This document shows, in pieces, positions 49,034 to 52,012 of a stretch of 64,000 nucleotides of DNA. The stretch is from the NCBI GenBank assembly GCA_021810045.1, contig JAJZJR010000011.1:1-64000 (forward strand), read 5' to 3'. This DNA is from Thermoplasmata archaeon (GTDB taxonomy: Archaea; Thermoplasmatota; Thermoplasmata; Thermoplasmatales; Thermoplasmataceae). Every line of letters begins with the position of its first letter. The stretch's first letter is position 1. A model generated the notes under the pieces. The model saw only the letters and a program-made list of their open reading frames with translations. It searched no databases and had not been told where the DNA came from. A program made the translations under genes and the position numbers.

Positions 49034-49456
49034 ATGTCCCATGACCTCAATAAAGGGGCTCATTCCGTTTACTCTCTCTATTATCATTTTATCCAGGTGG
49101 TGAAGTACCGCAGGAAAGTCTTCACCAATGATGAACTGGTGGACTTCCTCATGACAAAGATAAGGGAAATAGCGGAGAGATTCGATGTCGAGGTGGTATC
49201 AATAGAATGTGACGTGGATCATTTCCACATGCTGTTCAGGGGTACTCCTGTACTGAGGATCACCGAATTTGTGAATGCGGTGAAGACCATTACATCCAGG
49301 GAAATACAGAGAAATTTTCCAGATGTGAAGAAAGTTCTGTGGAAGGGCAAGATGTGGTCACCATCATACTTCCTTGCAACATCCGGACAGGTAACATTGC
49401 CTGTACTGATGAAGTACGTTGAATCGCAGGAGATCAAAGGAGATCAAGCGAATTGA
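49034..49456 (+). CDS. tnpA: IS200/IS605-family TnpA transposase (Y1, HUH)
   Basis: The 140-residue protein has the HUH motif VDHFHML (H63 and H65) and the catalytic tyrosine Y128 in LMKYVESQ. These enzymes cut and join single-stranded DNA at hairpin-marked ends during replication. Length is normal, so it is likely active. The mRNA is probably leaderless with TATA at about 49005. Its 3' end overlaps the tnpB start by 4 nt. Confidence 0.94.
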   Translation: MSHDLNKGAHSVYSLYYHFIQVVKYRRKVFTNDELVDFLMTKIREIAERFDVEVVSIECDVDHFHMLFRGTPVLRITEFVNAVKTITSREIQRNFPDVKKVLWKGKMWSPSYFLATSGQVTLPVLMKYVESQEIKGDQAN

Positions 49457-50655
49457 AGGCGTATAAGTTCAGGTTGTACCCGTCTGCGGATCAGGAAAGA
49501 AAGCTCAACTATCAGATAGAGCTCTGCAGACAGCTGTACAACTCATTCTTGCTTGAAAGAAGATATGCATACAGGGGAAACAAGAAATCCCTCACATACA
49601 ATCACCAGCAGAATGAGATACCTGAACTCAAGCAGGAATTTGAGGAATACAGACAGATTCATTCCCAGGTTCTTCAGGACGTTGCACGGAGAGCGGATCG
49701 TGCATACCAGAATTTCTATAGAAGGATAAGGGAGAAGAAGCAGGGTGTCAGGCAGAAGGCAGGGTTCCCACGATTGAAGGGGAGAGGACAGTACAAATCA
49801 CTGACCTATCCTCAGTCAGGATTCCATCTGCTGGAAAACGGACACCTGAAGCTATCGAAGATCGGAGAACTGAGAATGTTCATGCACCGTGACATAGCTG
49901 GCGAGATCAGGACACTGAACATATCACATGATGGAACTGGAGAATGGTATGCATCATTCTCCGTGAAACGGGACAACTTAGTATTTCGGCCTGAACATAC
50001 AGGCAACACCATCGGAATAGATGCAGGACTGCTGCATCTGGCCACGATGAGTGACGGCACAGTGATCGAACCCCCTCACTTTCTCATGAAAAGCGAGAGG
50101 AGGATCACGAAGGCACAGAGGAACCTTTCACGCAGGAAGGAAGGATCAAGCAACAGGAAGAAAGCAAGAATCATTCTCTCGAAACAGCATAAGAAGGTAA
50201 AGAACCAGAGAGATGACTTTGCACATAAGCTCTCAAATGAGATAGTGAGGAACAATGATCTCATTGTTTTCGAGGATCTGAACATAAGAGGCATGGTAAA
50301 GAATCACCATTTGGCAAAATCAATAGTGGATGCTTCATGGAACACCCTGATACAATACACAACCTACAAGGCTGAAAGTGCCGGTAAGCTTGTGGTATCA
50401 GTGGATCCGGGATACACATCACGTACATGCTCAAGGTGTGGATGGAAGAAGGAATCCCTGAAACTGTCTGAAAGGATATTCCATTGTGATTCCTGCGGTC
50501 TTGATATCGATCGGGATCTCAATGCCGCAATCAACATCCACAATCTTGGACTGATAAAAGTAGGGAGGGGCACTCCCGAAGTTACGCCTGTGGAGATCGG
50601 GGCACTACCCTCAAGGGCATCCCTGATCGGCGAAGCAGGAAGCCCCGTCCAATAG
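49453..50655 (+). CDS. tnpB: TnpB RNA-guided nuclease (IS605 type)
   Basis: The 400-residue protein has the RuvC-like residues D190 (GIDAGLLHLA), E274 (VFEDLNIRG) and the acidic DIDRDLNAA stretch (351-359), and a zinc finger C326/C329 and C345/C348 (CSRCGW and CDSCGL). TnpB is the ancestor of Cas12 nucleases; it uses a right-end-derived RNA as guide and helps the element persist. The start is a TTG inside tnpA. The stop lies inside the right-end hairpin. All catalytic positions are preserved. Confidence 0.94.
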   Translation: MKAYKFRLYPSADQERKLNYQIELCRQLYNSFLLERRYAYRGNKKSLTYNHQQNEIPELKQEFEEYRQIHSQVLQDVARRADRAYQNFYRRIREKKQGVRQKAGFPRLKGRGQYKSLTYPQSGFHLLENGHLKLSKIGELRMFMHRDIAGEIRTLNISHDGTGEWYASFSVKRDNLVFRPEHTGNTIGIDAGLLHLATMSDGTVIEPPHFLMKSERRITKAQRNLSRRKEGSSNRKKARIILSKQHKKVKNQRDDFAHKLSNEIVRNNDLIVFEDLNIRGMVKNHHLAKSIVDASWNTLIQYTTYKAESAGKLVVSVDPGYTSRTCSRCGWKKESLKLSERIFHCDSCGLDIDRDLNAAINIHNLGLIKVGRGTPEVTPVEIGALPSRASLIGEAGSPVQ

Positions 50656-50662
50656 GGCGGGG
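50643..50662 (+). ncRNA. right-end hairpin and likely guide RNA (reRNA) core
   Basis: CCCCGTCC pairs with GGGCGGGG around AATA, with one G-U pair. The tnpB stop (TAG, 50653-50655) lies inside. In characterised TnpB systems the guide RNA covers the 3' end of tnpB plus the right end, and its guide part is the sequence just beyond, here starting near 50665-50675. Transcript extent is inferred. Confidence 0.5.
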
Positions 50663-50717
50663 AGGATGTCACATCTTCAAGAGTAAAAACTTATAACCTG
50701 AAGCTAATATGTAGCCC

Positions 50718-50903
50718 GTCCCAAAAATTAGTATATGTGATCTATGAACATATATGACGACATGGGACTAAAACTCGTTTAGTCATGGGCCTCGGGAGAA
50801 GCATCTGGTGGGCCATCAGGCTATGATCTCCCGATCAGCGACAGACGAAAAATTCCCCATGGGTCAGTGGAATTATGAAACGTGAATAATTCCCGTTAAA
50901 CTG
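50718..50903. other. gene-free region dense in inverted repeats
   Basis: Several perfect or near-perfect inverted repeats are packed here: TATATGT/ACATATA (50732-50754), GTCCCA/TGGGAC (50718-50768), GACTAAA/TTTAGTC around ACTCG (50766-50784), TCGGGAGA/TCTCCCGA (50792-50834) enclosing AGC/GCT and CTGGTG/CATCAG, CATGGG/CCCATG (50784-50861) and TTCCC/GGGAA (about 50890-50907). This could be a structured RNA or a long 5' leader of the protease gene at 50933. No known RNA family motif was recognised. Confidence 0.45.
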
Positions 50904-50932
50904 GGGAAAAGTCTTTAAAACAAGGAGACAAG

Positions 50933-52012
50933 ATGGAACAGCAAGGTAATGTCGGCAGGGTCCAGAGCGATGATCTGCAATATGTAGTTGATGCAGTTAC
51001 CAGCCGTCTTCATACCTATGATGTTCAGGCCAATCCTGTCAGCATAAGATTTTACTATTTCAACAGCGACAATCCTGATCTTTTTGAGGCTTTTGACAAG
51101 ATAAGGATCGAACTCATACCAAAGGGGTATATCCCTTATCTTTCTCAGAACGGTGAACATTTCCTGGAGGTTACAAGAAGACCAAAAACCCGTTTTTCCG
51201 GAGTATATGTGAACGTTATTATGCTTGTCCTGACCCTTCTTTCCACCATATATGTGGGTTCAACATATTCATCTTATTTTGTAAAGCCTGGATCAAGTGA
51301 ATTCCTCAGCCTGTTCTATGGATTCATATTCTTCTCGCTTCCTCTCATGCTTATACTCGGTATCCATGAAACAGGACACTATATTGTTGCAAGAAGGCAC
51401 AAAGTGAGGGCATCACTCCCATTCTTCATTCCATTCCCTGTTACAATAGGCACATTTGGTGCATTCATTTCACTGCGCGATCCTGTACCCAACAAGAGGG
51501 CAATGGTGGAAATAGGCATAGCAGGCCCTCTTTTCGGGTTCCTGACTGCATTGCCCCTCCTGTTCGTAGCTTCTTACCTCAGCCATATTTTCGTCCCTGT
51601 TCCAAATGCTACTGCAACACTCTCCATTAACTTTCCAATAATCTACACACTACTGCATCTGACCACCCCTGCGGATCAGCCGGTATTCCCCATGGTCCTG
51701 GCGGTCTGGGTAGGAATGTTTGCAACCGCTATGAATCTCCTGCCGGTAGGGCAACTTGATGGCGGGCACGTTGTAAGGGGTCTTTTCGGAAAGAAGGCAT
51801 CAATTGTTGATTACATCTTTGTGGCATTCCTTTTCGTAATCGGCTACAAATACAGTGGATGGTGGCTCCTGGCAATATTTGTCATAATTATGGGTCTAAC
51901 GCATCCACCTGCACTGGACGATTATTCCCCCATCAAGGGCAGGCAGGTTGCACTTGGCATTGTAGGCCTGATAATGTTTGTGCTTACATTCACAATAATA
52001 CCCATAAAGTAG
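50933..52012 (+). CDS. site-2 protease family membrane metalloprotease (M50)
   Basis: The 359-residue protein has an N-terminal cytoplasmic domain of about 90 residues, then seven or so hydrophobic helices. The zinc motif HETGH is at 145-149 and the third ligand region is LLPVGQLDGGHVVRG (the usual LDGGH). Such proteases cut membrane proteins inside the bilayer, often releasing regulators. An in-frame purine-rich AAGGAGACAAG directly precedes the ATG, so unlike many genes here it has a leader with ribosome-binding site. The leader may include the inverted repeats at 50718-50903. Confidence 0.92.
   Translation: MEQQGNVGRVQSDDLQYVVDAVTSRLHTYDVQANPVSIRFYYFNSDNPDLFEAFDKIRIELIPKGYIPYLSQNGEHFLEVTRRPKTRFSGVYVNVIMLVLTLLSTIYVGSTYSSYFVKPGSSEFLSLFYGFIFFSLPLMLILGIHETGHYIVARRHKVRASLPFFIPFPVTIGTFGAFISLRDPVPNKRAMVEIGIAGPLFGFLTALPLLFVASYLSHIFVPVPNATATLSINFPIIYTLLHLTTPADQPVFPMVLAVWVGMFATAMNLLPVGQLDGGHVVRGLFGKKASIVDYIFVAFLFVIGYKYSGWWLLAIFVIIMGLTHPPALDDYSPIKGRQVALGIVGLIMFVLTFTIIPIK

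Follow-up and report, generated by a model that had tools for sequence, protein, structure and literature searches.

A candidate three-hairpin H/ACA guide RNA gene of the HgcG/Pab40 kind in Thermoplasmata

The Pab40/Pf7 RNA of Pyrococcus is an H/ACA RNA with three hairpins, the last of which (hairpin III) guides the equivalent of U1915 (PMC2584109, PMC4652768). In Archaeoglobus fulgidus, the hairpin Af4.3 has L1970 (equivalent to U1915) as its target, and Af4.2b has L2601 (PMC4652768). In archaeal H/ACA RNAs, the ANA box lies 14-16 nt (usually 14-15) from the pair that closes the pocket, and the upper stem holds a K-turn or a K-loop (PMC4652768). Our literature search found no report of an H/ACA RNA from Thermoplasmatales.

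The window, i.e. the whole stretch of 64,000 nt analysed here (contig JAJZJR010000011.1 of the Thermoplasmata archaeon GCA_021810045.1), contains a repeat-rich segment that almost certainly, judging from its letters and those of its homologues, encodes an archaeal H/ACA guide RNA with three hairpins (Table 1). Perfect stems of 6 bp or more number 8 between positions 50718 and 50910, against a mean of 2.1 in dinucleotide shuffles, and a count of 8 is reached by 1 shuffle in 1000; for stems of 7 bp or more the count is 5, against 0.53 expected from such shuffles (none of 1000 reaches 5). The + strand folds better than 200 of 200 shuffles (z = -3.95), and the fold of the - strand is weaker (z = -2.30). 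An RNA on the reverse strand was considered and rejected, the fold being poorer there and the ANA boxes and the TATA box lying on the + strand. Stem counts and fold z-scores bear out the original prediction, made on the letters of the stretch, that inverted repeats are denser here than in random sequence, and all the repeats it had named, including an 8-bp stem around a hairpin, were recovered in place. It had also seen no known RNA family, in agreement with Rfam, whose gathering scores are reached in the window by two tRNAs only.

Table 1. Positions, in the window, of the putative guide RNA, its parts, its inverted repeats and the neighbouring elements.
Feature	Position	Strand	Details
IS200/IS605 element	49034-50682	+	neighbour outside the RNA; right end at about 50682
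TnpA	49034-49456	+	Y1_Tnp
TnpB	49453-50655	+	OrfB_IS605/TNB
Conserved promoter	50685-50696	+	A-rich BRE 50685-50689; TATA box TTATAA 50691-50696
Putative three-hairpin H/ACA guide RNA	50713-50915	+	extent of covariance model R1 (219 bits); hairpin core 50718-50911
Hairpin 1	50718-50768	+	fold; counted pairs in alignment
Hairpin 1, lower stem	50718-50723/50763-50768		
Hairpin 1, upper stem	50731-50738/50748-50755		
Hairpin 1, pocket	50724-50730; 50756-50762		5' strand; 3' guide GACGACA
Hairpin 1, K-loop GATCTATGA	50739-50747	+	GA...TGA in 29/29 homologues
Hairpin 1, T and ANA box	50769-50772	+	AAA 50770-50772; 14 nt from the pocket-closing pair
Hairpin 2	50775-50848	+	lower-stem covariation GUC/GAC, ACC/GGU, UCC/GGA, GCC/GGC in alignment
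Hairpin 2, lower stem	50775-50780 and 50782-50784/50840-50848		bulged A50781 (TCGTTT-A-GTC/GAC-AGACGA)
Hairpin 2, pocket (ATGGGC/TCAGC)	50785-50790; 50836-50839		5' guide ATGGGC; 3' guide CAGC
Hairpin 2, upper stem TCGGGAGA/TCTCCCGA	50792-50799/50827-50834		K-turn UGA 50824-50826; apical hairpin above
Hairpin 2, ANA box AAA	50849-50851	+	14 nt from the pocket
Hairpin 3	50853-50908	+	fold, covariation; guides match 23S helix 69
Hairpin 3, lower stem	50853-50859/50902-50908		
Hairpin 3, upper stem	50869-50876/50886-50893		
Hairpin 3, pocket	50861-50866; 50895-50898		5' guide GGGTCA; 3' guide GTTA
Hairpin 3, K-loop GAAACGTGA	50877-50885	+	GA...TGA in 29/29 homologues
Hairpin 3, ANA box AAA	50908-50910	+	14 nt from the pocket; overlaps the last pair of the longest lower stem
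Inverted repeat GTCCCA/TGGGAC	50718-50723/50763-50768		
Inverted repeat GACTAAA/TTTAGTC	50766-50772/50778-50784		overlaps the GTCCCA/TGGGAC stem
Inverted repeat TCGGGAGA/TCTCCCGA	50792-50799/50827-50834		encloses a hairpin
Inverted repeat TATATGT/ACATATA			present in the stretch
Inverted repeat TTCCCCA/TGGGGAA			encloses GGAATTAT/ATAATTCC
Site-2 protease gene (Peptidase_M50)	50933-52012	+	PF02163

In the computed fold, hairpins 1 and 3 share one layout: above a lower stem comes a near-symmetric internal loop with 7-9 nt on either side, then 8 bp of upper stem and a 9-nt GA...GA loop. Archaeal H/ACA guide RNA hairpins with K-loops are built in this way. The middle part was re-paired with the homologues as a guide, giving hairpin 2. 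By fold and helix covariation, a lower stem, a two-sided internal pocket and an upper stem are present in each of the three. Among 29 homologues, an ANA box follows the lower stem of hairpins 1, 2 and 3 in 28, 28 and 29 sequences, and it stands at exactly 14 nt from the pocket in 22, 26 and 28. The UGA of the hairpin 2 K-turn is kept in 27 of these 29, and the stem beside it pairs poorly in many of them. The box of hairpin 3 is ACA in one homologue (L018), and literal ACA boxes are also carried by distant homologues.

BLAST shows the RNA to be single-copy in its own genome; across 61 genomes it detected a copy in 30, this genome counted. A search with the covariance model R1 recovered the RNA from 64 of the 300 Thermoplasmata genomes in the sample: almost every family member sampled, most of the wider order, and a single genus belonging to a different family; carriers include Thermogymnomonas acidicola, Thermoplasma and Ferroplasma acidarmanus. 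In most homologues, including relatives free of the insertion element, an A-run and a TTTA/TTATAA-like element precede the model start by about 22 nt, and transcription would be expected to begin at about 50715-50718.

Double changes occur in 39 of 54 pairs across the 29 homologues, with 229 double-change cells against 82.5 +- 7.9 in shuffled controls and a covariation score of 0.421 against 0.198 shuffled (0.06-0.12 when the partner is slid). RNAalifold independently recovered most of the same helices. When distant homologues are included (24 sequences, in an alignment fitted to the model), there are 370 double-change cells against 127, and the score is 0.610 against 0.178 shuffled. The three-hairpin structure is evolutionarily real: the compensatory changes that the original prediction proposed to look for with a covariance model are abundant, and its first suggestion, a structured RNA, was right by both covariation and fold.

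As for its affiliation, the RNA is most probably, as its homologues indicate, a new and divergent, unannotated Thermoplasmata member of the HgcG/Pab40 (Pf7) guide family. The copy in the window gives no match to RF00064 (HgcG) at E <= 5 and no relevant Rfam model matched it, so that membership rests on intermediate homologues. Among 10 homologues found by R1 and tested, 8 match RF00064 with E from 4e-12 to 1e-4; most matches of the distant ones run end to end, yet stay below the gathering score of 77 bits. This fills an annotation gap, since the tested members of the Thermoplasma/Ferroplasma family escape current Rfam models.

The invariant parts of the RNA are the guide strands that match 23S rRNA, and the RNA most likely guides pseudouridylation at three key sites in the large rRNA (positions in E. 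coli numbering, with U2511, U2554 and their neighbours numbered by hand from sequence context). Hairpin 3 very probably guides U1915 in helix 69: its strands GUUA and GGGUCA pair fully with UAAC[U1915]A UGACCC in all 8 complete relatives; the site reads the same in the organism's own 23S. For hairpin 2, we consider U2554 of the A-loop a likely target, CAGC and AUGGGC pairing with GCUG[U2554]NC GCCCAU, with three target nucleotides in the gap against the usual two. The choice of U2554 is favoured because family f5 has A instead of U at 2555 and keeps U2554. The target of hairpin 1 is the least certain, because the GGAA arm is lost in the window's family; U2511, near the peptidyl-transferase region, is a reasonable candidate, somewhat better than an even bet, GACGAC pairing with the GUCGUC that precedes it. 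In f3 and f4, and only there, both arms are present, the 5' pocket strand also having GGAA for the downstream UUCC. Family f5 seems to lack hairpin 1 at the guide RNA locus.

Guide and target also change together between lineages. In f8, the A-loop of 23S reads GUUG and the guide CAAC, a C-to-U change in the rRNA matched by G-to-A in the guide, and at hairpin 1 both partners differ (target GUCGG, guide CCGAC); these co-changes represent one lineage, with two genomes of one genus.

Some further peculiarities were noted. One homologue (L032, genome G008) has GGAGTGA in the hairpin 1 pocket strands, not GACGAC, and is possibly retargeted. Where their 23S aligns with A2503/U2504 of E. coli, in the peptidyl-transferase centre, f5 genomes (L152, L155, L157) appear to have UU, not AU, and f8 genomes (L161, L165) CC, both unusual for such conserved nucleotides. 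The 23S of G085 (L161) contains about 250 extra nt between helix 69 and the A-loop relative to its relatives, possibly an rRNA intron.

Cbf5, Nop10 and L7Ae are encoded in the genome, all above curated cut-offs, and a Gar1 match is borderline (28.1 bits against a cut-off of 29.3, E 3e-6). We suggest that transcription of the guide RNA would start at its own TATA-box promoter and probably run on into the site-2 protease gene, that L7Ae would bind the K-loop or K-turn of each hairpin, and that Cbf5-Nop10-Gar1 would sit around the pocket and the ANA box. Both pocket strands would then pair with 23S rRNA, flanking a uridine that Cbf5 would convert to pseudouridine. The three pseudouridines are predicted in functional centres of archaeal 23S: helix 69, the A-loop and near the peptidyl-transferase centre.

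The protease gene starts 12-38 nt 3' of the RNA in 27 of 30 family members, among which the identity of the protease proteins goes down to 49%. Co-transcription is likely because of this short distance, and the guide RNA and the protease likely share a transcription unit; a guide RNA gene kept directly before one protein gene across a family makes a case of such a unit. The distance leaves little room for a protease promoter, so the RNA is probably in the 5' part of the protease transcript. It is conceivable, if unlikely, that in the window's family the guide RNA also serves as the conserved 5' leader of the protease transcript, whose H/ACA assembly or processing releases or controls the protease mRNA, and that the middle hairpin was gained specifically in this lineage as a guide for U2554 of the A-loop. 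If true, ribosome modification would be coupled to membrane proteolysis.

Very improbable is a regulatory leader of the protease mRNA whose hairpins would set protease expression by changing between mutually exclusive folds. The original prediction had likened the exclusive repeats to switching RNA leaders and had offered a leader controlling the protease. The repeats do overlap, and the proximity of the protease start is what such a leader would have; the switching idea falls, however, because the competing stem GACTAAA/TTTAGTC, unlike the stems of the three hairpins, is not conserved: it has only 54% of its cells paired in the homologues and a covariation of 0.091 against 0.096 shuffled. A role as protease regulator is not supported either, because in Ferroplasma acidarmanus convergent genes flank the RNA at a place far from the protease, and no protease start is found within 300 nt of the RNA in the other families f3, f4, f5 and f8. 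The parts kept invariant are, moreover, the strands matching 23S rRNA, and a protease leader was rejected as primary function, the synteny being broken in Ferroplasma and absent outside the family. The Ferroplasma protease genes have TATA-like sequences of their own, as seen by eye.

The guide reading must also be compared with that of an H/ACA-shaped RNA acting on other RNAs (tRNA, mRNA) or as a chaperone of rRNA folding, and not guiding pseudouridylation. The statistics of single guide-target matches would suit it: in one genome, 79, 93 and 733 of 1000 shuffled guides did as well as the real one for hairpins 3, 2 and 1, so that the match is no more than moderately unusual for hairpin 3 or hairpin 2, and for hairpin 1 the bipartite match is not significant; hairpin 1 also lacks one arm in the window's family. 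This single-genome test being weak, the case for the targets is built on conservation, on experimentally tested homologues and on co-change in one lineage. We find such a role very improbable, since hairpin 3 hits the same uridine as those tested homologues and guide and rRNA have changed together in f8.

The original prediction had also proposed a remnant of a mobile element. That the RNA derives from the IS200/IS605 element, as such a remnant or as its right end or omega RNA, is almost certainly wrong. The RNA does lie directly downstream of the element, and the terminal part of TnpB is similar to the 3' half of Rfam HgcC, but the RNA is single-copy in the genome and occurs in 64 of the 300 class genomes, and in relatives without the element, where that prediction had advised checking the location, both promoter and RNA are present, homology with them resuming at 50683 and spanning the whole of both. 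It follows from this boundary that the element landed directly upstream of the promoter and left the gene uncut. As a separate observation, the resemblance to HgcC covers 50640-50685 (the 3' end of tnpB and the right end of the element; 21.9 bits, E 0.0039, below the gathering score), and IS605-type elements may have HgcC as the scaffold of their omega RNA. In an f3 genome, a match to the C/D-box guide sR17 was seen beside the H/ACA RNA (L133, 635-702; 23.7 bits against a gathering score of 36).

Taken as a guide RNA, the locus can be compared with three described systems. With HgcG/Pab40/Pf7 (RF00064), it shares three H/ACA hairpins in the same order, a hairpin 3 that guides the U1915 equivalent (here by complementarity) and CGAC in the pocket of hairpin 1. 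It differs in that the Rfam model fails to detect the window copy, that the A-loop guide AUGGGC/CAGC of the middle hairpin is absent from the part of the HgcG consensus compared, and that the 5' guide arm of hairpin 1 is lost in the window's family. Afu4 of Archaeoglobus fulgidus (Af4.1, Af4.2, Af4.3) is likewise a multi-hairpin H/ACA RNA. The spacing between its L2601 and L1970, 631 nt, is the same as that between U1915 and U2554 in Ferroplasma 23S, and by this spacing L2601 would correspond to U2554; Af4.1, in contrast, targets S1167 of 16S, whereas hairpin 1 here points to 23S. Among the H/ACA hairpins HP1 and HP2 of Haloferax volcanii, HP2 is a predicted guide for the U1915/U1917 equivalents (PMC2584109), a likeness to hairpin 3 of the RNA described here.
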